Virus record (IMG/VR): IMGVR_UViG_3300032245_000791
Coordinates: 1 to 26,284 of that record
Strand: one strand, 5' to 3'
DNA length: 26,284 nucleotides
From: a virus
A model generated the notes under the pieces. The model was not told where the DNA came from, did not search any database, and was given only the letters and a program-made list of their open reading frames with translations. This document shows positions 10,711-25,578 of the stretch, piece by piece. Each line of letters opens with the position of its first letter. Position 1 is the stretch's first letter. The translations under genes and the position numbers were made by a program.

Positions 10711-11843
10711 TGGAACAATTTGGATTTTATCGAGTCGGTGATGCAAAGTTCTTCAGCAAGTTAGAAGCCGCACATGAACATGAGCGTGTGGGATTACCTT
10801 TAAAGTGGGATTTTAACGAGGCTGTATACAGCAGTTACGATTGGCGGATTGAACCAACTGAAACATTAGAAGAATTATATCGACAACGAGCACAACAGAT
10901 TAGAGACCGATATGATTATCTTGTGCTTTGGTTCAGTGGTGGTGCTGACAGTAACAATGTTCTCAATGCCTTTATCAACAACAATATCAAACTAGATGAA
11001 GTTGCCAGTCAAGTCAATTACGAGGCAACACACGATAAAACCAACTTCTTAAACGGGGAGATTTATCATGTGGCCAAACCCAAGATCGAAACTGCTAGGC
11101 TAAAACAACCTTGGCTCAAGCATACTGTTATAGATTTAGCAAAACAAACACTAGATCACTTTACTGCCAAAGAAACCAAGTTTGATTGGATATATCATAT
11201 GAATGGATATCTGAACCCAAATAATGCGGCCAAGCAGGACATTAAATTGCGTGAGCCACATTGGCGTGATATGATTGCGGCCGGTAAGCGTGTGGGCTTT
11301 ATACACGGCATTGACAAACCACGCATCAACGAAGTCAAGGGCAACTACTATTTCCGTTTCGTGGACATGGTAGACACTGCTGTCAGCGGGCAAGTACAGA
11401 TGTTAAATCGTCCCTGGGATTTTGATGAAATGTTTTATTGGAGCCCCGATTCACCCAAAATAGTGATCAAACAAGGACACGTGATCAAGCGTTATATGAA
11501 ATTGGCAACGCCAACTACAGACTATATCACTACGGATTCGAATAATGTTATATACAAAACAATCAACAATAAAAAGTATTTTCTAAGTGTTGATGGCATC
11601 AGTTACTTGATCTATCCTGGATGGTACCCGGTGCCGTACCAGGCCAAGGCACCTAGCTTGTTTTTTACTCCCAGGGACGAATGGTTTTTTAAATTGCCCG
11701 ATGATGATCCTGCTAAGTATTCTTGGAGAACAGGACTAGAACACATTTGGCGTATCATGCCCACCAAATGGAAAGAAGATCCTCAAGACATTAGACGAGG
11801 ATTTAAAAAGATGCACAGCAAGGTTTATAATTTAGGATCATGA
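10710..11843 (+). CDS. PP-loop ATPase (adenine nucleotide alpha hydrolase), paralog 2
   Basis: A tandem paralog of the preceding gene (377 aa). Both share the pattern GFYxVGDxxFxSK, IEP..(S/T)L.ELYR.RAQQ.RDRYDY and the PP-loop. Here it reads WFSGGADSNNVLNAFINN, with SGGADS at residues 76-81. Later motifs GFIHGIDKPRI and YYFRFVDM match paralog 1. The start overlaps the previous stop by 1 nt and the stop overlaps the Bug gene by ATGA, so the three genes form one translationally coupled unit. The duplication suggests two related substrates or a heteromer. A role in tRNA or cofactor modification is possible given the tRNA context but is not shown. Confidence 0.85.
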   Translation: MEQFGFYRVGDAKFFSKLEAAHEHERVGLPLKWDFNEAVYSSYDWRIEPTETLEELYRQRAQQIRDRYDYLVLWFSGGADSNNVLNAFINNNIKLDEVASQVNYEATHDKTNFLNGEIYHVAKPKIETARLKQPWLKHTVIDLAKQTLDHFTAKETKFDWIYHMNGYLNPNNAAKQDIKLREPHWRDMIAAGKRVGFIHGIDKPRINEVKGNYYFRFVDMVDTAVSGQVQMLNRPWDFDEMFYWSPDSPKIVIKQGHVIKRYMKLATPTTDYITTDSNNVIYKTINNKKYFLSVDGISYLIYPGWYPVPYQAKAPSLFFTPRDEWFFKLPDDDPAKYSWRTGLEHIWRIMPTKWKEDPQDIRRGFKKMHSKVYNLGS

Positions 11844-12736
11844 AAAGTTTAATTTTATCTTTGGCCATGCTATTTGGCTCGGCACAAGCAGAAACAATTC
11901 GGATAGTGGTGCCGTTTGCGCCCGGCGGCGCAGCCGATCAGGCCGCTCGTGTGCTAGAACGAGCTTTAACCACACATACACAGAACACGTATGTCGTAGA
12001 GTACCGTGCAGGTGCAGGCGGCGCCATAGGTGCCAATTATGTGGCAAAAAGCCGTGGTTCTGACACTGTTTTGTTGATTCATAGCCTGGCTGTGGTGGTA
12101 AACAGTCTCCAGGCTGATAGTGCGTACAGTTTAACAGAGTTTGAGCCTGTGGCCACCTTGGGCACTGTACAGCTGGCCCTGATCACCAATCCCAAGAGTG
12201 CGGTTAACACCATGCCCAAATTGTTGGCCACACGAGACCCGGTGTTCTTTGGCAGTAGTGGTCCTGGTGCGGCCACACACATTGCTGGAGAACTGTTTGG
12301 AATCAATACTGCGGTCAATATGACTCATGTACCTTACCGAGGTGAAGCGGCCGCACTCACAGACATACTTGGCAACAACATTACAGTACTGTTCACAGGC
12401 GTTGGCGTAGCCCGGGATCAACCTGTTACAGTACTAGCAGTCACAGGAACTCGGCGTAGTAGGGAATTTCCACAGGTGCCTACATTACAAGAACAGGGTG
12501 TACGAGGTTTTGAAACTAGTCCAAATTGGTTAGTGCTGTTGGCCAACCCAACAGCAGATCAGCGCACACTGGCAGTGATCCGAACCGCACTCGGACGAGC
12601 ACTTCAAGAAGATTCGGACTTGTTTGCTCGAATAGGTGTTGACACAGACCGCCAACAGTTGTATAATACACAACAGTTTATGAACGCTGAGCGACAACGA
12701 GTTCAAAAGATTTTATCCCGAATTCAAATAAAGTAG
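11840..12736 (+). CDS. Bug/TctC-family periplasmic solute-binding protein
   Basis: A tripartite tricarboxylate transporter substrate-binding protein (Bug family). It has a signal peptide MKSLILSLAMLFGSAQA with likely cleavage before ETIRIVVPFAPGG, so the mature protein should be periplasmic. Family signatures are present throughout: IRIVVPFAPGGAADQAARV, RAGAGGAIGANYVAK, FGSSGPGAATHIAGELF, HVPYRGEAAALTDILG and VTGTRRSREFPQVPTLQEQG. It has 298 aa against about 320-330 for most relatives. Bug proteins bind dicarboxylates, amino acids or other carboxylated ligands and are abundant in Betaproteobacteria. No TctA/TctB membrane genes are in the window, so it would have to serve a host transporter. 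It overlaps the PP-loop gene by ATGA. It is most easily explained as a gene acquired from a host. Confidence 0.93.
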   Translation: MKSLILSLAMLFGSAQAETIRIVVPFAPGGAADQAARVLERALTTHTQNTYVVEYRAGAGGAIGANYVAKSRGSDTVLLIHSLAVVVNSLQADSAYSLTEFEPVATLGTVQLALITNPKSAVNTMPKLLATRDPVFFGSSGPGAATHIAGELFGINTAVNMTHVPYRGEAAALTDILGNNITVLFTGVGVARDQPVTVLAVTGTRRSREFPQVPTLQEQGVRGFETSPNWLVLLANPTADQRTLAVIRTALGRALQEDSDLFARIGVDTDRQQLYNTQQFMNAERQRVQKILSRIQIK

Positions 12737-15402: not shown

Positions 15403-15849
15403 ATGAATAATGGTAGATATAACACAGACTCGTATAAAGCAGGACAAACAGCAAAAGTAGACAGACTTTTTGGTCCTATACTAAGTCACTCTAAAGTATG
15501 CGAGTGTTGTGGAAAAGATTATGTATGGGAAGGTAGACTGAATACTAAAGCATACAGAGAATCGAAGTTTTGTAGTAGAAGTTGTGCTAACAATAGAAGT
15601 GAATGGTGGAAAGATAATGCTACGAGATATACAACTATTGCAAAACAGAATCATGAATATAAGTGTGTAGTATGTGGGTTTGATAAGATTGTTGCTATTC
15701 ATCATATTGATGAAAACAAGAAAAATAATAAACCTAATAACTTAATACCGCTATGCCCAAATCATCACGAAATGGTACATAGCAAATGGAAAGACGAAGT
15801 TATTCCGCATATAACGGAATGGCAAAAGAAATATGGGCTGTTGGTATAG
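15403..15849 (+). CDS. HNH endonuclease (probable homing type) inside the tRNA cluster
   Basis: A 148-aa HNH nuclease. The C-terminal core has zinc Cys pairs (CVVCG at about 88-92; LCPNHH at 117-122) around the catalytic HNH pattern: HH at 100-101, Asn in NNLIPLC at 112-113, HH at 121-122. The N-terminus carries another Cys cluster (CECCGKDY and CSRSC), probably a zinc-binding DNA-recognition part. Free-standing HNH enzymes of this kind in phages are often homing endonucleases that spread into neighbouring loci. The gene is more A/T-rich than its surroundings, which agrees with separate acquisition. The last 15 nt, including the TAG stop, lie within tRNA-Ala. RBS: CGGAGA, 7 nt before the ATG. 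Confidence 0.88.
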   Translation: MNNGRYNTDSYKAGQTAKVDRLFGPILSHSKVCECCGKDYVWEGRLNTKAYRESKFCSRSCANNRSEWWKDNATRYTTIAKQNHEYKCVVCGFDKIVAIHHIDENKKNNKPNNLIPLCPNHHEMVHSKWKDEVIPHITEWQKKYGLLV

Positions 15850-15909
15850 TTGGGAACACAGTGGCTTTGCAAGCCTCAGTCCCCGGTTCAAACCCGGGAC
15901 GGTCCACCA
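15835..15909 (+). tRNA. tRNA-Ala(UGC)
   Basis: Acceptor GGGCTGT/ACGGTCC with G-U pairs, CCA encoded, T-arm CCCGG/CCGGG, anticodon loop TTTGCAA. One T-T mismatch in the anticodon stem. The 5' 15 nt overlap the end of the HNH gene. Confidence 0.87.
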
Positions 15910-17987: not shown

Positions 17988-19340
17988 ATGGAAAATATTT
18001 TACTCTCTACATCTATCTTTTTGCTTGCCATGCTCGGAGCACTAATGGTAGTTGGCAAGAATTGGAATTCGTCTTTTATTTCGTTTTTGTTTGCCGACAA
18101 GTCATTGAAAATTGGATCCGCAGGCCTGGCAATTTCATGCCATTGGTTTTGGGCCATTGCTATTTTTGTAGGCCCGGCTGTTGCATATAATTGGGGAATC
18201 ATTGGGTTACTGTGGTTTGTGATACCTAATGCACTTAGTCTACTGGTAGTTGGTGCAATCACTCACAGTATACGAGAAAAATATCCCAATGGATACAGCA
18301 TCACACAGTACATAAAAGAAAACTTCAGCACACGTATCAGTGGATTATATCAATTGGAATTCATGTTAATTTCCTTTGCGGCACTGATATTGGCTTTTAC
18401 AGCCATTGGTAAACTGTGGGCATTCACCGGACTAACATCTATTATAGAACCAATCTATGCTAGTCTTGTAGTTGGCATCGTCACTTTGTTGTTTACATTA
18501 AAGGGTGGTATCCGCACAAGTATTTTTACAGGAGCCATTCAGTCTGTGCTATGGTTGGTGTTGGTATCAGCCATTGGTGTATCAATTTACAGTAGTGACT
18601 TGGCATTTGTGTCTTTTGGCAAAAATGAGCTAACAACATTTTTTAACGAGAAATTTATTACAAACTTTGCATTGGCCTGGTTTATCACAGTCATGGCTGG
18701 AGCGACCGGACATGGCATGATGTGGCAAAAAGCATTTAGTATGCCAAAAGAAAATATATTGCCATCGTTTGGCCTGGCAAGTGTAGTATTTGCCATCGTG
18801 GCATTTGGAGTAGCCTGCCTGGGCATGGTTGCATTTGCCAATGGATTTGAAATAAAATCTCCCGACACAACACAAATGACAGGGTTGATAACACTACTGG
18901 GCACCGGTGCATTGATATATTTTGCCACAATTTTAGTGGGACAAACAAGTAGTGTGATTGATTCTGCACTAAACTATGTTGCCAGTTTGGTGGGCCCAGA
19001 GTGGTTGCATAAAGAAAAAGTAACAACATCACAAATTGTAATGGTGGTCTTTATGTTGTTTGCTTGGGTTGTGTCATTGGCCAGGATTGAAATTTGGTCA
19101 GTGGTCATGCTCATGGGCTGTTTACGAGTAAGTATGTTTGCTCCTATTGCACTACATGCGTTTAATTTTAAACTCAAAGAGTCAGTTATATTCTTTGCAT
19201 CGATTGTGGCTGTTGTTGGCAGCTTCACACTTTCCTACATTGCTAGGACAGATAAATTACCAATCTTTGACATGTACAGTGCATTGTTTGCGTTACTGGT
19301 GCCAACAGTGGCATTGTTGTTGACCAAGACTAAAGAATAA
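17988..19340 (+). CDS. SSS-family sodium/solute symporter
   Basis: A 450-aa polytopic membrane protein with about 12-13 hydrophobic segments, the size and shape of the sodium:solute symporter family (PutP/Panf/SglT). Family-like features are the early segment with IGSAGLAISCHWFWAIAIFV, a charged loop with THSIREKYPNGYSITQYI, and TLKGGIRTSIFTGAIQSVLW, which corresponds to the GG..A..WTD..Q signature. It would import a solute with Na+ across the host inner membrane; the substrate cannot be read. The ATG at 17988 has SD AAGGA 8 nt upstream. Transport proteins are uncommon in tailed phages. Together with the Bug receptor it suggests uptake functions gained from hosts. Confidence 0.85.
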   Translation: MENILLSTSIFLLAMLGALMVVGKNWNSSFISFLFADKSLKIGSAGLAISCHWFWAIAIFVGPAVAYNWGIIGLLWFVIPNALSLLVVGAITHSIREKYPNGYSITQYIKENFSTRISGLYQLEFMLISFAALILAFTAIGKLWAFTGLTSIIEPIYASLVVGIVTLLFTLKGGIRTSIFTGAIQSVLWLVLVSAIGVSIYSSDLAFVSFGKNELTTFFNEKFITNFALAWFITVMAGATGHGMMWQKAFSMPKENILPSFGLASVVFAIVAFGVACLGMVAFANGFEIKSPDTTQMTGLITLLGTGALIYFATILVGQTSSVIDSALNYVASLVGPEWLHKEKVTTSQIVMVVFMLFAWVVSLARIEIWSVVMLMGCLRVSMFAPIALHAFNFKLKESVIFFASIVAVVGSFTLSYIARTDKLPIFDMYSALFALLVPTVALLLTKTKE

Positions 19341-19373: not shown

Positions 19374-19952
19374 ATGAGCCCAGACTTTGAATATTTTTTT
19401 CGGGCAACTCCCGACCCATCTAAGGACATGTATGCATTATATGATGTATTAGATGGGCATTTTTTAATACAATCAGACAATTATGATAATCTTTATAGAT
19501 TGATGATGTACATCAGGTCCAAGACCTATCTGGAGATTGCAAAACTTCCCAAATCCAATTTGGACAACAGTCAAATTGAGCAATGGTATATTAAAAAATT
19601 ACCAAACGAGTGGTTCAATGACCCACATCCTGTTAAACGACAATTTAACCCAACACGGCATCGTGACGTTTGGACCATAAAAAATATCATACTAGGCAAG
19701 CATGTAGATTTTACACTTGACGAGTTTAAAACAGATTTACAAAAGCAACTATTTTTCTTCTATCACTGCATAGATTTGTTGAATCAAGATTTTGATTCAG
19801 ATCTGGCCAGTGTGATTATACGCACCATGGAATTATGCACAACTTACAACGACGCAATAGATGTCATGCTAGATAGTATATCAATTTCTTCCCCCGAGGG
19901 AAGATTGGGAGTCTATACATTTCTTCGTCGTACTGGACTATTCTATGAATGA
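19374..19952 (+). CDS. Phage protein of unknown function, 192 aa
   Basis: Not recognised. The protein begins MSPDFEYFFRATPDPSKDMYALYDVLDGHF and is rich in aromatic and charged residues. A central loop holds LPNEWFNDPHPVKRQFNPTRHRDVW, and the C-terminal half is helical (FKTDLQKQLFFFYHCIDLLNQDFDSDLASVIIRTMELC). No Cys cluster or catalytic motif is visible. Its 3' end overlaps the asparagine-synthetase-like gene by 8 nt, so the two are coupled and may work together, for example as a partner or substrate-recognition subunit of that enzyme. The start codon lies 16 nt after a hairpin and has no clear Shine-Dalgarno sequence. Confidence 0.72.
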   Translation: MSPDFEYFFRATPDPSKDMYALYDVLDGHFLIQSDNYDNLYRLMMYIRSKTYLEIAKLPKSNLDNSQIEQWYIKKLPNEWFNDPHPVKRQFNPTRHRDVWTIKNIILGKHVDFTLDEFKTDLQKQLFFFYHCIDLLNQDFDSDLASVIIRTMELCTTYNDAIDVMLDSISISSPEGRLGVYTFLRRTGLFYE

Positions 19953-21147
19953 CTTGATATTTGTTGATCATATTATATTGGCAGTGACCGATTTCAATGT
20001 TTTTCATAACGAGGAGTATCGGGATTACTTTGGGCTATATCGCAGATGGAACATTCCACCGGGAATTGAATTTTTAATACCGCGTAATGCTCCATTGGAA
20101 ATAAAAAATCCCTGGAACATAACTACTAGCAGTTTCCCACTTCCTGGTCCCAAGGATATGTCATTTGTAGATGCGGCGGATTCTTTTGGACAATCCATTG
20201 CTGATGAGATGGATGCTGGAAAACATATATACATGCTTTGGTCTGGTGGCATTGACAGTACATGTGGTGTTGTGAGTGTGTTAAAAAACTGCAAGCCCGA
20301 ACATCATGAGCAGATACATGTTGTCATGTCTGACAGTAGTCGTCAAGAAAATCCAGTGTTTTATGAAAAATATCTAAAACATTATGATCGTATTGAGTTT
20401 ACAACCTTGGATTTTGCAAACATTGATATTAAAAATATCTTGGTATTAGATGGTGAGGGCGGTGATCAAATGTTTGGATCAAGCCTGGCCAATAAAGCGT
20501 TTTCAATGTACCCGGACATAATAAATGCATCGTGGCAATCACAAATTGACTTTATAACCAAGTTGCTACGCAAGGACTGGGACACTGATCATACCTGGGA
20601 CGTTTTTATAAATCTCATGACCGGTACAATTCCTGACTACGTGCGTGTCGAAACACTTCAAGAATTCTTTTGGTGGATGAACTTTAATTTTAAAGTTGAT
20701 GCAGTATTACAAAGAACCCCACTGTATTACGGAACCACTTTGAGCAATGCTGATTTTGGATATTTTGTAAAAAATTGTGTTAGACGGTTGTTTGCTCATA
20801 AAGAAATTCAGCAGTGGAGCATGTCGGCTAGTTCAAATGAAAAAACAGAAGGTGGCAAACAAACCAAAATGCCTGCTAGACGTTATATCTATGAATTTGA
20901 TCACAATGAATATTATTTTAGAGAAAAACGCAAAGAGTTAAGCACACCGATGTTTAATCGCAAGTACTTTGCAATTGATAAAGAGTACAATCGTTATAGT
21001 CTTGATGATCGTACAGTCAGGCAACATATTAGACAATCGTTGTATCCCAATGCTGTTGGCAAAATACCGTTTGACCAACACAGCGTCCCCGGACCAACAT
21101 ATGACACAAACTTAAAATTTTGGAAGTCCAATCCAATTAACAAATAA
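19945..21147 (+). CDS. Asparagine-synthetase-like ATP-dependent enzyme
   Basis: A 400-aa protein with the two hallmarks of the asparagine synthetase/beta-lactam synthetase synthase domain. The PP-loop WSGGIDSTCGVVSVL has SGGIDS at residues 100-105. The motif LDGEGGDQMFGSS (168-180) corresponds to SGxGGDElFGGY. The N-terminal glutaminase domain with Cys1 is absent; the first 95 residues are a different short domain. The enzyme probably adenylates a carboxylate for amide or lactam formation without using glutamine through its own subunit. It is a third, more distant PP-loop protein of the window. The TAA stop forms part of the late box at 21143, and tRNA-Gly follows. Confidence 0.85.
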   Translation: MNDLIFVDHIILAVTDFNVFHNEEYRDYFGLYRRWNIPPGIEFLIPRNAPLEIKNPWNITTSSFPLPGPKDMSFVDAADSFGQSIADEMDAGKHIYMLWSGGIDSTCGVVSVLKNCKPEHHEQIHVVMSDSSRQENPVFYEKYLKHYDRIEFTTLDFANIDIKNILVLDGEGGDQMFGSSLANKAFSMYPDIINASWQSQIDFITKLLRKDWDTDHTWDVFINLMTGTIPDYVRVETLQEFFWWMNFNFKVDAVLQRTPLYYGTTLSNADFGYFVKNCVRRLFAHKEIQQWSMSASSNEKTEGGKQTKMPARRYIYEFDHNEYYFREKRKELSTPMFNRKYFAIDKEYNRYSLDDRTVRQHIRQSLYPNAVGKIPFDQHSVPGPTYDTNLKFWKSNPINK

Positions 21148-21150
21148 ATA
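21143..21150 (+). promoter_or_regulatory. Late-promoter box AATAAATA overlapping a stop codon
   Basis: The TAA stop (21145-21147) of the asparagine-synthetase-like gene is part of this box. The next element is tRNA-Gly, 15 nt downstream. Confidence 0.45.
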
Positions 21151-21165
21151 ATAGTATCAAATATC

Positions 21166-21239
21166 GCGGGTATGATGTAAAGGTAACCTGAAACCTTGCC
21201 AAGGTTTATTTGCGAGTTCGATTCTCGCTACCCGCTCCA
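21166..21239 (+). tRNA. tRNA-Gly(GCC)
   Basis: Acceptor GCGGGTA/TACCCGC, discriminator T, CCA encoded, anticodon loop TTGCCAA. Confidence 0.93.
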
Positions 21240-21245
21240 ATTAAT

Positions 21246-21956
21246 ATGACAGAAAAAACCAGACCTAAAGCATTTTGGCGCAGACATGAATTGCCTGTTG
21301 CAGAATTTCTGATGAAACATCAGCAGGCTCTGCTCGATGATTTCATGCGAGGGTACACAACGTTGGAAGACGCCGCAAGAGCACAGTGCGGCAATACCCT
21401 GGACCGTACACATTTAGGCATTCCCATTGCAGAAACAGAGCACTATATAAAAACCGACAGCCGTCCCAATATCGATTCGTGGAAAGCATTGAACTTTCGC
21501 TACGAGCGACATGACGAACGTGCCAGTGTGCGTAACTTCATGGACTTTAAGGATATGGGACGGTACCCCACTATGCGTAAGTTGTTGATGAAATACGACA
21601 AGATTTGTCCCATTGCCAACTACAGCGTCCTGGCACCACATAGTGTAATTGAACGACACACCGGTCCCGAGAACAGAGATGGTCGATATATTCGTATACA
21701 CATTCCCTTGATCATTCCCAAAGGCGATGTATTTTTTGAAGCCGCAGGCGAAGTAATTGACTGGTCCGACATTTGGGCTTTTCACAATCAGTTTGCACAC
21801 TCAGCACACAACTACACAGACGAATGGCGCTTGTGTTGTCTAATAGATTTAGATCGTGCGGCAATAGGCATGGAGCCGGGAGCACCGTATGATCCTGCTT
21901 ATGAAGCACAAAACTTGCCACCGTTTGTGTGGAACAAAGAACAAACGCATCCTTAG
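21246..21956 (+). CDS. 2OG-Fe(II) oxygenase of the Asp/Asn beta-hydroxylase family
   Basis: A 236-aa protein with the aspartyl/asparaginyl beta-hydroxylase core. NYSVLAPHSVIERHTGPENR carries the first iron-binding His (138). RIHIPLIIPKGDVFFEAAGE is the double-stranded beta-helix strand. FAHSAHNYTDEWRLCCLIDL carries the second His (185 or 188) and the 2-oxoglutarate-binding Arg195. This family binds iron with two His and no carboxylate, as seen here. It would hydroxylate an Asp/Asn-like residue or a small substrate using O2 and 2-oxoglutarate. The ATG is 6 nt after the CCA of tRNA-Gly and has no SD. The TAG stop is U8-A9-G10 of tRNA-Val, so the gene fills the gap between two tRNAs exactly. Confidence 0.87.
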   Translation: MTEKTRPKAFWRRHELPVAEFLMKHQQALLDDFMRGYTTLEDAARAQCGNTLDRTHLGIPIAETEHYIKTDSRPNIDSWKALNFRYERHDERASVRNFMDFKDMGRYPTMRKLLMKYDKICPIANYSVLAPHSVIERHTGPENRDGRYIRIHIPLIIPKGDVFFEAAGEVIDWSDIWAFHNQFAHSAHNYTDEWRLCCLIDLDRAAIGMEPGAPYDPAYEAQNLPPFVWNKEQTHP

Positions 21957-22022
21957 CTCAGTTGGTAGAGCGTCGCCTTTACACGGCGAATGTCGGCGGT
22001 TCGAGCCCGTCAGGATGTACCA
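21947..22022 (+). tRNA. tRNA-Val(UAC)
   Basis: Acceptor GCATCCT/AGGATGT, discriminator A, CCA encoded, anticodon stem TCGCC/GGCGA with loop TTTACAC. The first 10 nt are also the end of the hydroxylase gene. Confidence 0.92.
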
Positions 22023-22028
22023 ATTATT

Positions 22029-23180
22029 ATGATATGTAGCATTGACTCATCTGTTGACCCAACTAATAGAATGACCTTTTTATTAGATTGGGAAATAACA
22101 AAACTCTGTAATCTTGATTGTAGTTATTGTGGCCCAGAAAGTCACAACAACAGCACACCGCATCCACCACTGGATCGTTGCCTGGCAACTATTAAATTTA
22201 TGTTTGCATACGTTGACCTGTATATGCAACATAAAAAGAACAAAGATGTTATTTTAAATATCTATGGTGGTGAGAGCTTATTTCACCCCAACATCATCGA
22301 AATACTGGCGGCTGTTCGGGACGAGTATTCATTGTATCAGGATCGGTGGAGATTAACCACAACTTGTACCACCAATGCTGTGGTAGGAAAGAATTTACTA
22401 ACTAGAATATTGCCTTACATTGATGAGTTTACTGTTAGTTTTCATGCCGAAGCTCTGGCCAAACAGCAAACACAAACATTGGACAATTTGTTAACTATCA
22501 AACAGGCCGGCAATCGTGTCAAGTGTGTGGTCATGATGCACAATAATCCTGTATTGTGGCAGGCCAGTATGAATGCAGTTGCCTTTTGCCAAGACAATGA
22601 AATTGCCTACATATCAAAGGCATTTGATAACTCGGGACCTGAGTGGGCGTATAATGATGCACAGCAAAAATATATGAAAATATTTTGGGCATCAAAAGAC
22701 ACACTGACCAACAAGCCAATTATTGAGCAAGGCCGTGCCTGCTGTGGTGGTCGTAAGTTATCTGTCAATAACAATTTGCGTGAACGTCAGACTTTTGTGC
22801 CACGAACCAATTTTGAAGGTTGGCAATGCAGTGTCAATTGGTTTTTCTTGTACATTGATCAATTGAATGAGGAAATCTACACAAACAAAGATTGTCGTAC
22901 CAGCACCACCGGTCGTGTTGAGCCACTGGGCACTCTTGAATCCAGTGACACCATATTAGATACGCTGTCAACCCAGATGCAAACAGGCCAACTACCGGTT
23001 ATACAATGTATCAAGCCCACATGTCGCTGTGGATTTTGTGCGCCCAAGGCACAAGATGCAACACAATTTTTACAAATTGCCAACAGGCATTTTGATACCT
23101 CGGTCCTTAGTTCAATGGATAGAATGCTTGGCTTCGAACCAAGCGGTGTGGGTTCGATTCCTGCAGGACCGGCCAATTAA
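22029..23180 (+). CDS. Radical SAM protein with C-terminal Cys cluster; tRNA inside its 3' end
   Basis: A 383-aa radical SAM enzyme. C-x3-C-x2-C (CNLDCSYC; Cys27, 31, 34) binds the 4Fe-4S cluster that cleaves SAM. ILNIYGGESLFHP is the GGE motif. C-terminal Cys residues (ACCGGRK and CIKPTCRCGFC) suggest a SPASM/twitch-type auxiliary cluster domain, common in peptide- and protein-modifying enzymes. The start could be 22029 (6 nt after tRNA-Val; SD-like AGGAT lies in the tRNA) or 22071. The frame stays open through the whole of tRNA-Arg, which encodes residues ~358-382, and stops just after it. The tRNA-coded tail is unlikely to be ancestral. The stop overlaps the convergent gene's stop at TTAA. 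Confidence 0.85.
   Translation: MICSIDSSVDPTNRMTFLLDWEITKLCNLDCSYCGPESHNNSTPHPPLDRCLATIKFMFAYVDLYMQHKKNKDVILNIYGGESLFHPNIIEILAAVRDEYSLYQDRWRLTTTCTTNAVVGKNLLTRILPYIDEFTVSFHAEALAKQQTQTLDNLLTIKQAGNRVKCVVMMHNNPVLWQASMNAVAFCQDNEIAYISKAFDNSGPEWAYNDAQQKYMKIFWASKDTLTNKPIIEQGRACCGGRKLSVNNNLRERQTFVPRTNFEGWQCSVNWFFLYIDQLNEEIYTNKDCRTSTTGRVEPLGTLESSDTILDTLSTQMQTGQLPVIQCIKPTCRCGFCAPKAQDATQFLQIANRHFDTSVLSSMDRMLGFEPSGVGSIPAGPAN
23101..23175 (+). tRNA. tRNA-Arg(UCG), embedded in a radical SAM gene
   Basis: Acceptor CGGTCCT/AGGACCG, discriminator G, CCA encoded, anticodon stem CTTGG/CCAAG with loop CTTCGAA. The whole tRNA lies in the open 3' end of the upstream radical SAM frame. Confidence 0.92.
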
Positions 23181-24349
23181 ATATACGGCTCAAACAGCTG
23201 GTAAACTTCGGGGAATACATCTGCAAATTTTTGATTTCGCAGTTGATCTAAATCTTGAGTATGTTGCCAAAATTTAGGCCAATTCACATCACAGCCAGGA
23301 ATAGTTTGCATCAACAAGTTATCTATTCCTTGAGATTTGATTATTTTATTTTTTGATATACGACGGTATATTTTTTTTCGCACATCAACTGGTATGTGTC
23401 GTATATCATATTCACTGGGTGTATTGACAGCATTGAGTGCAACTGGTAATTTTAATTGACTTAGATTATCAACAATACGATCAAGCTGAACAATGTTTAA
23501 CGGCGTAACAGTGGTTGTAATGACTAATTCTACATTTTTATGTGGTTTAAAAAACTCTGTAATTTTGACAAGATTAGACAATATAGTCTTGGCATTTGCT
23601 GGGTAGCGGATATAATTTAACTCGTCTTCGTTGTCGCTGTCTATGCTGACAGCAAATCGGACTTTGGGGTATTTGGTTAATATGTCTAAATACTTGGGGT
23701 TAAAGATAGTTCCGTTGGTGTGTAGTTGTATTTGTGCATTGGCCTCAGCGGCACGACCTAGCGAATCAAACAGAGCTGGATTTAACATGGGCTCCCCGCC
23801 GTAGATATCCAAGTATACCAAATTTGGCAACCATTCGGTGAAGGTATCCCAGTAGTCTACATTGCTGGCATTGAAACTGTTTCGTATATGCTCAAATTCT
23901 TTGGTATATTCTTGTGAGGTGCCTGCGTATCCTTCTCGCTTTACAGCAATGTTGTATGAATCTTTATACCAACCCGAGCTGGTCTCGGCATTGCACATAC
24001 GACAGGCCAGATTACAAGTATTTCCGGGTTTTAAAACAAACACTCTTGGTTGTGCGGCCATAGGTACTACATCTTTAAATAAAGTGTTGAACTGTATTCT
24101 AGGACTAGAATCATTGGCCTTCTCTAAATCAGTGCAGTGAGTACATTCATTGAGTTCCCGTCCGCGATCAAGTGCAGTGGCAATCATACGCCTGGTATAA
24201 CTGCCCCATGCATCTTTAAGTTTGTCTTTATGCACAAACATTACTTGTTGTTGATTATTTTTAAAACTCATTGTGTTGACATTACAAACACAAAAATCTC
24301 CGTTGTTTTGTAATGCTAGTCCAATGTGTGGCATAATGCATTTAGTCAT
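23177..24349 (-). CDS. Radical SAM protein with N-terminal twitch-like Cys, 390 aa
   Basis: The radical SAM signature CNLACRMC (Cys112, 116, 119) is followed by LDIYGGEPMLNP, the GGE motif, and later strands with LHTNGT and AVSIDSDNE typical of the partial TIM barrel. N-terminal Cys residues (4, 20, 22, 69, 72: CIMP, CVC, CTHC) could hold an extra Fe-S cluster, so the protein looks like a twitch-containing radical SAM enzyme with the cluster domain in front. Its gene overlaps the upstream 410-aa radical SAM gene by ATGA and its stop overlaps the convergent plus-strand gene. The reaction is unknown. Confidence 0.88.
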   Translation of the reverse strand: MTKCIMPHIGLALQNNGDFCVCNVNTMSFKNNQQQVMFVHKDKLKDAWGSYTRRMIATALDRGRELNECTHCTDLEKANDSSPRIQFNTLFKDVVPMAAQPRVFVLKPGNTCNLACRMCNAETSSGWYKDSYNIAVKREGYAGTSQEYTKEFEHIRNSFNASNVDYWDTFTEWLPNLVYLDIYGGEPMLNPALFDSLGRAAEANAQIQLHTNGTIFNPKYLDILTKYPKVRFAVSIDSDNEDELNYIRYPANAKTILSNLVKITEFFKPHKNVELVITTTVTPLNIVQLDRIVDNLSQLKLPVALNAVNTPSEYDIRHIPVDVRKKIYRRISKNKIIKSQGIDNLLMQTIPGCDVNWPKFWQHTQDLDQLRNQKFADVFPEVYQLFEPYI

Positions 24350-25578
24350 AGTAGTTTTTTTATTTCTGGGAATGTTTTACGATAATCAGTTCCGCGGCGA
24401 CGATCTAATTCAGTTAAATAAATTTTTAATTTTTCTTGCAACTCAATACTGGGATCGGTGTTGGCAATTTCAGCACCGATTCCTTTAATGTACTCCAAAT
24501 AAGATATTTTTTCTGGACTGTCGGCAATGAAGATATCAACAGCTTCGTTGAATCCCAACTCAAGCAATGCGGGCCCAAATATAGTCGGATGCAAAAATGA
24601 TTTCCCCGCAGTCTTCATAATAGTCCAGTTTACTGATTTTGTTTTGCTCCAGTGATTTATTTTTTTAACCAGGGCTGGCATTTCGGGTATGCCCAAACAA
24701 CTCAAACTACTATTGATATTGAGTACAAAATCAGTGTGCTCAACCAAGTAGGTGTAATTGCGATCAAACAATTCCAAATCAAGTCCGTTGCGTAGATATT
24801 CAGCACCAGGCCCCCAGCAGTCTATGCTGCCAATGATGGTGATTTGATTTAGATTGTTGATTTTTTTTAGTTGATCGATTTGTTTAACAAACTGAGCATG
24901 TTCAATCATCATGTTACTAAAAATAACCAAGTCAAGATTGGGCAACGATTTATTTTTTAAAAATTCCAACAGGCGTTGAGTTTCTTTTTGTATAAAGGGT
25001 TCTCCGCCCAATACCAACAGTTGGTCCAGTGTGTGAATATGTTGATCTAACCAAGTAAACATTTTTTCTGTGGCGACTGGATACTCTTCGGGTATGGGCA
25101 AGAAGGGAGGTATGTGTACTCCATCTTTAAAGAAATGTCCAAATTTTTTATTTTCGTTGTTGATTTGACTGCTGAACTGCGGAGAACAATACACACATTT
25201 TAAATTGCAAACATTACTGAAATATATTTCAAGAATTCGCGGAGTCACTTGAGTGGCCATTGGTGTATGGTCAAGTTCAGGCGGAGCCCGATAGCCGTGA
25301 AAATCAAGATGCAACATACGGTCACTGGTGCCGCCTGCATCTTCAATGTTTTTACAATGTTCGCATCCGCGGCCAGGCCACTTGCCTTCAAGCATGAGTC
25401 CACGGTCGTTTAGTTTTTCTTTTGTGTTATGGAAATCAAAAGTATCAAGGTCAAACTTATTATGATTAACACGGTGACAACTTGCTGTTGTGAGTTCGGT
25501 TAGAAATACTGTACTATGTGACCATTTGAGTTGACAAGCAGTTTCGGTCTCTATTGGGAATTTTTTGTAGGTTTTCAT
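24346..25578 (-). CDS. Radical SAM protein with N-terminal Cys domain, 410 aa
   Basis: This is the first gene of the minus-strand pair. The signature is CNLKCVYC (Cys124, 128, 131), followed by LLVLGGEPFIQKE (GGE motif), NMMIEHAQF and IGSIDCWGPGAEYLR in the barrel. Four N-terminal Cys (15, 34, 72, 75: ACQ, SCH, CEHC) parallel those of its downstream partner, so the two are probably paralogs with the same domain order. Translational coupling by ATGA suggests a two-enzyme complex or successive steps. Transcription is likely from the minus-strand half of the palindromic late box at 25591; the leader would be only a few nt and no SD is seen. Confidence 0.88.
   Translation of the reverse strand: MKTYKKFPIETETACQLKWSHSTVFLTELTTASCHRVNHNKFDLDTFDFHNTKEKLNDRGLMLEGKWPGRGCEHCKNIEDAGGTSDRMLHLDFHGYRAPPELDHTPMATQVTPRILEIYFSNVCNLKCVYCSPQFSSQINNENKKFGHFFKDGVHIPPFLPIPEEYPVATEKMFTWLDQHIHTLDQLLVLGGEPFIQKETQRLLEFLKNKSLPNLDLVIFSNMMIEHAQFVKQIDQLKKINNLNQITIIGSIDCWGPGAEYLRNGLDLELFDRNYTYLVEHTDFVLNINSSLSCLGIPEMPALVKKINHWSKTKSVNWTIMKTAGKSFLHPTIFGPALLELGFNEAVDIFIADSPEKISYLEYIKGIGAEIANTDPSIELQEKLKIYLTELDRRRGTDYRKTFPEIKKLL

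Follow-up and report, generated by a model that had tools for sequence, protein, structure and literature searches.

We conclude that the overlaps between protein-coding genes and tRNAs in this stretch of phage DNA are real and more general than the sequence-only reading had supposed, yet ordinary: they are probably the outcome of everyday gene packing that makes use of stop codons carried by the tRNAs, without a dedicated switch. The geometry of the overlaps, their recurrence in unrelated phages and their prediction by the tRNA sequence are all matters of direct observation. The window, that is, the whole of the DNA analysed here, and its relevant features are as follows:

Whole IMG/VR contig IMGVR_UViG_3300032245_000791, 26,284 bases: lake phage DNA, densely packed.
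15403..15849, + strand: HNH endonuclease gene, the TAG stop of which is nt 13-15 of tRNA-Ala (phrog_2255, 3.7e-15).
15835..15909, + strand: tRNA-Ala(tgc) (ARAGORN).
21166..21239, + strand: tRNA-Gly(gcc), CCA encoded (ARAGORN; Rfam RF00005, 58.0 bits).
21246..21956, + strand: Asp/Asn beta-hydroxylase-like gene, 236 aa (PF05118, 1.8e-13; translation).
21947..22022, + strand: tRNA-Val(tac), intact cloverleaf, CCA encoded (ARAGORN; RF00005, 66.3 bits; fold).
21954..21956, + strand: hydroxylase stop codon TAG, which is U8-A9-G10 of tRNA-Val (ARAGORN and translation).
22029..23180, + strand: radical SAM gene, 383 aa (PF04055, 3.3e-6, slightly under the Pfam cut-off; relatives 51-57% identical over residues 2-360).
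23101..23175, + strand: tRNA-Arg(tcg), entirely within the radical SAM ORF, CCA encoded (ARAGORN; RF00005, 63.1 bits).
23177..24349, - strand: convergent radical SAM gene (PF04055, 3.6e-13).

The gene order, coordinates and tight spacing that had been described for positions 21166-23180 are all borne out: on the + strand, tRNA-Gly, the hydroxylase gene, tRNA-Val, the radical SAM gene and tRNA-Arg follow each other with spacers of 6, -10, 6 and -80 nt. One part of that description has to be amended, namely that the radical SAM gene precedes tRNA-Arg; the two do share a strand and have no spacer between them, but the ORF contains the whole tRNA. A third gene/tRNA overlap in the window involves the HNH gene at 15403-15849, which ends at nt 13-15 of tRNA-Ala. 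The 6-nt spacers are too short for any promoter or terminator; between the genes, the search for internal promoters yielded matches that barely exceed those in shuffled sequences (29 vs 21.7, sd 4.8), and that for terminators remained at the background level (6 vs 5.7). At 23177, 1 nt past tRNA-Arg, the stop of the convergent - strand radical SAM gene overlaps that of the + strand radical SAM gene, and because the two genes end on the same bases, no space is left for a terminator at this point either. The involvement of an integrase and an attP site, as in tRNA-dependent lysogeny (PMC10865867), was considered as a cause of the overlap and rejected, given that the neighbouring genes scanned include no integrase.

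The hydroxylase ORF extends from the ATG at 21246 to the TAG at 21954-21956, and tRNA-Val begins with GCATCCT-TAG-CTC, so that the stop codon occupies nt 8-10 of the tRNA; the proposed identity of this TAG with U8-A9-G10 is thus confirmed by the tRNA sequence together with the ORF translation. In other words, the gene runs into the acceptor stem of a tRNA on its own strand and terminates at nt 8-10, as in the cpeT/tRNA-Val overlaps discussed below, and both partners appear intact, judging by the scores of the hydroxylase (PF05118, 1.8e-13) and of the tRNA (RF00005, 66.3 bits). Cleavage by RNase P at the mature 5' end of tRNA-Val would, as the sequence-only reading anticipated, strip the hydroxylase mRNA of its stop codon, leaving a message that ends in ...ACAAAC. 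Given an ORF that reads into a tRNA in this frame, the coincidence itself is not rare, because 208 of the 389 distinct tRNAs surveyed, about half, carry TAG at nt 8-10. The start of the hydroxylase gene, 6 nt 3' of tRNA-Gly, has no visible Shine-Dalgarno sequence; this cannot be taken as a special trait of tRNA-proximal genes inasmuch as the radical SAM relatives without a nearby tRNA mostly lack an obvious one, too.

Could the overlaps simply result from sequencing or assembly error, or from degeneration of the genes? The junction comes from a single metagenome contig, and the comparison with related phages that had been proposed gave nothing for the hydroxylase: neither viral contigs nor phage isolates contain a relative detectable by sequence, no second contig with this junction was found among the viral contigs, and the distant PF05118 genes have no tRNA within their 3.3-kb loci. 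Nevertheless, such an artefact is very unlikely, considering that all three tRNAs of the region, tRNA-Gly, tRNA-Val and tRNA-Arg, are intact (58-66 bits against RF00005), that the radical SAM protein retains the CxxxCxxC motif and its identity with relatives extends to the tRNA boundary, and that the same geometry is found in finished isolate genomes.

The radical SAM gene (ATG at 22029, TAA at 23178-23180) is not of the nt 8-10 type and instead runs through the tRNA: its last 26 residues, 358-383, are encoded by tRNA-Arg, and its stop codon lies just 3' of the tRNA, giving a predicted C-terminal tail ...SVLSSMDRMLGFEPSGVGSIPAGPAN. The homologues end near residue 360-365, and the relatives with 51-57% identity, none of which has a tRNA within 1.5 kb, terminate 1-10 codons beyond the match, the end of which lies around residue 360. 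In the C-terminal alignment, native ends such as ANHFDVGVLST* line up with a window sequence where ANRHFDT leads into the tRNA-encoded SVLSSMDRMLG...; tRNA-Arg has therefore replaced the final few codons and the stop. At another locus (L004), a relative of this gene adjoins uvsX, so the gene moves independently of tRNAs. Furthermore, an unrelated radical SAM gene (locus L206, 614-1813, - strand) also spans a complete tRNA-Arg(tcg), read in the frame that the gene in the window uses.

The arrangement had been considered unusual for a phage, and this view does not hold: isolated cyanophages from eight Kyanoviridae genera, and several unrelated phages, have the identical 10-nt overlap. The cyanophage cases were found by a BLAST search with tRNA-Val, as isolates with an annotated CDS overlapping a tRNA, and were then inspected. 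The stop codon of cpeT coincides with nt 8-10 of tRNA-Val in Syn33, S-CAM8, S-RIM2, S-BM1, S-M1, Syn2 and Syn30, of tRNA-Gly (with TAA) in S-RIM8, and of tRNA-Thr in ACG-2014b, that is, in tRNAs of three identities. A query consisting of the cpeT end and the tRNA is covered at 80% or more in 173 phage records, so for cpeT the comparison of junctions across phages revealed conservation of the overlap. The CpeT profile phrog_488 matches residues 1-151 of 152, and because the match reaches the end of the protein, these ORFs can be considered real genes. The arrangement can change, as follows from the overlap of only 1 nt in ACG-2014a. The cpeT overlaps of these marine cyanomyoviruses (Syn33, NC_015285; S-RIM2; S-CAM8; S-RIM8) resemble that of the hydroxylase in that an accessory gene and a tRNA on one strand share exactly 10 nt; they differ in the gene and the phage group, in that the junctions usually occur singly and not in series, and in that the tRNAs mostly have no encoded CCA, unlike the three at 21166-23180. 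In Stenotrophomonas phage Mendera, where an HNH gene overlaps tRNA-Arg by 39 nt, accessory and homing-endonuclease genes are likewise packed between tRNAs, the stop codon being located deeper inside the tRNA. Annotators should be warned that one of two overlapping genes tends to be dropped, be it the gene or the tRNA: among the records at L169, L171, L170 and L172, the cpeT CDS is missing where it overlaps tRNA-Val in S-BM1 and S-M1, and the tRNAs are missing at the cpeT overlap in ACG-2014a and ACG-2014b.

A broader sample was obtained by searching viral contigs with a pattern for a common tRNA core; the resulting 80 loci contain 481 tRNAs, selected irrespective of any overlap. ORFs of at least 100 aa ending no more than 30 nt from a same-strand tRNA, or inside it, were counted, with overlap defined as at least 3 nt and with the artefactual tRNA-reading ORF of L184 excluded. 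The 48 close gene-to-tRNA junctions in this sample comprise 15 overlaps, of which 7 measure exactly 10 nt, and the genes involved include those for a 2OG-Fe(II) oxygenase, GIY-YIG and HNH endonucleases, CpeT and serine hydroxymethyltransferase. Genes with family support show the 10-nt overlap both in the sampled loci (2OG-Fe(II) oxygenase/tRNA-Thr, GIY-YIG/tRNA-Leu and HNH/tRNA-Ala) and elsewhere (phrog_741/tRNA-Arg in S-RIM44, AAA_33 kinase/tRNA-Arg and DUF7448/tRNA-Ile). Of the 389 distinct tRNAs, 218 have a stop codon at nt 8 in the nt-8 frame, and 181 are free of any stop in the frame from nt 3; given these counts, an ORF that enters a tRNA is apt to terminate after 10 nt or else to continue through the whole tRNA. 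These two likely outcomes, predicted by tRNA sequence alone, are the two cases seen in the window. Thus, a simple tRNA rule, TAG at nt 8-10 in about half of the surveyed tRNAs and one frame that is often open, explains where run-in genes end. Selection for the -10 position is not established, with 7 such overlaps among the 15 against 4.0 expected under a null drawn from each tRNA's own sequence (P = 0.07); the sampling pattern contains TTAG and accordingly favours tRNAs with TAG at nt 8-10, a bias that is allowed for because the null uses each tRNA's own sequence. The slight excess (7 vs 4) may still leave room for some selection.

Packing with tRNA-borne stops can be pictured as follows. A large T4-like phage, related to RaK2, GAP32 and Atu_ph07, would pack small accessory genes spacer-free into an array of 25 tRNAs, and a gene that has lost its own stop codon, or never had one, would continue into the tRNA that follows. 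One frame meets the near-invariant U8-A9-G10, which supplies a TAG after 10 nt, as for the hydroxylase and tRNA-Val; in another, the tRNA is often stop-free, so that the ORF spans it and ends just past the CCA, as for the radical SAM gene and tRNA-Arg. We infer that genes and tRNAs share a transcript, on which ribosomes trailing the polymerase would reach the TAG, terminate and meanwhile keep the acceptor stem open; later, the freed tRNA would fold and be released by RNase P, which would end the life of that mRNA, and ribosomes stuck on cut messages would presumably be cleared by host rescue of the tmRNA or ArfA type. The termination step is compatible with the finding that bacterial PURE ribosomes terminate at a stop codon supplied by a flanking tRNA fragment, albeit a fragment and not a whole folded tRNA (PMC9674279). 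The suggestion that tRNA maturation and complete translation exclude each other on one transcript is correct for one order of events only: translation after the cut would fail, but full translation, even repeated, would be possible before it.

A more elaborate possibility is that cleavage by RNase P is a regulatory switch, whereby early, uncut transcripts would make the hydroxylase and the radical SAM protein until tRNA maturation becomes dominant, yielding nonstop mRNAs and shut-off. This scenario draws on the fact that both genes have their stop codon on the 3' side of the RNase P site, and on the retention of the cpeT overlap in eight cyanophage genera notwithstanding the change of the tRNA from Val to Gly to Thr, which could indicate that the overlap is useful rather than merely tolerated. 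We nonetheless consider it unlikely: the frequency and position of the overlaps are close to what the tRNA sequence alone predicts, the genes affected are unrelated and include those for HNH and GIY-YIG endonucleases, and cpeT of ACG-2014a deviates, with its 1-nt overlap. The more specific proposal, that processing of tRNA-Val and tRNA-Arg is a timed shut-off of accessory enzymes via nonstop mRNAs and that the cyanophages use the same device for cpeT, appears less probable still. The cpeT/tRNA-Val overlap in Synechococcus phages offers a cultured system in which the competition between translation and RNase P is measurable. A limited literature search, which provides weak evidence of absence, did not turn up any description of phage genes with tRNA-borne stops.

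The likeness to the tRNA punctuation of mitochondrial genomes, to which the sequence-only reading had also pointed, is partial. Genes do abut tRNAs in both systems, and an uncut transcript has a tRNA-formed stop that the cut one lacks; in mitochondria, the flanking tRNA supplies the in-frame stop in ND1/tRNA-Ile and ND2/tRNA-Trp (PMC9674279). If the same mechanism operated here, cuts at the tRNA ends would free the mRNAs, and poly(A) would complete the stops. Three features fit this mechanism: the genes of the region are directly flanked by tRNAs on either side; a cut at tRNA-Arg would leave the radical SAM mRNA with a terminal U, so that poly(A) would create UAA and the protein would end in ...NRHFDT; and other phages have 1-nt overlaps (TA|G). 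Completion by poly(A) fails, however, for the hydroxylase, where the cut mRNA would end in AC and the added A would give ACA (Thr), and it restores a stop in 0 of 25 distinct 10-nt overlaps, a test that is weaker than it looks because TA before an A or G at nt 1 already is a TAA or TAG stop. The restoration in the radical SAM gene (U+AA) is a curiosity rather than a regularity, being seen in 4 of 55 overlaps. In mitochondria, moreover, expression is non-coupled and the RNase P is a different one, unlike in the phage in question. In bacteria, poly(A) mainly promotes decay. Mitochondrial-type punctuation thus seems extremely unlikely. At three of the loci with 1-nt overlaps (L212, L233 and L170), the TAG stop of the gene takes its G from the first nucleotide of the tRNA behind it, and an RNase P cut would leave UA, the mitochondrial-like case.

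As for the phage itself, the UvsX protein encoded in the window shares 59-69% identity with its counterparts in RaK2, GAP32, CBB, Atu_ph07 and Phosso, whose genomes measure about 345-490 kb, which is why the contig is probably a fragment of a large T4-like phage; nearer UvsX relatives, with up to 92% identity, come from environmental viral contigs, several of which also contain tRNA arrays (loci L077, L078, L085, L086, L100 and L101). In two isolate relatives, Atu_ph07 and Vibrio phage 2.275.O, the surroundings of uvsX have no annotated tRNA. ARAGORN detects 25 tRNAs in the window, every one on the + strand; they lie between 9094 and 25930 and cover 19 amino acids, tRNA-Thr being the one not found in this fragment. 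Among the other genes are one for a TctC/Bug-type tricarboxylate receptor (11840-12736; PF03401, 1.6e-29), possibly host-derived, and a 450-aa ORF (17988-19340) without a Pfam match that resembles a multi-pass membrane transporter. Finally, an Asn-synthase/QueC-like gene, the hydroxylase gene and three radical SAM genes are grouped among the tRNAs at 19945-25578, and it is possible that they constitute a modification pathway.
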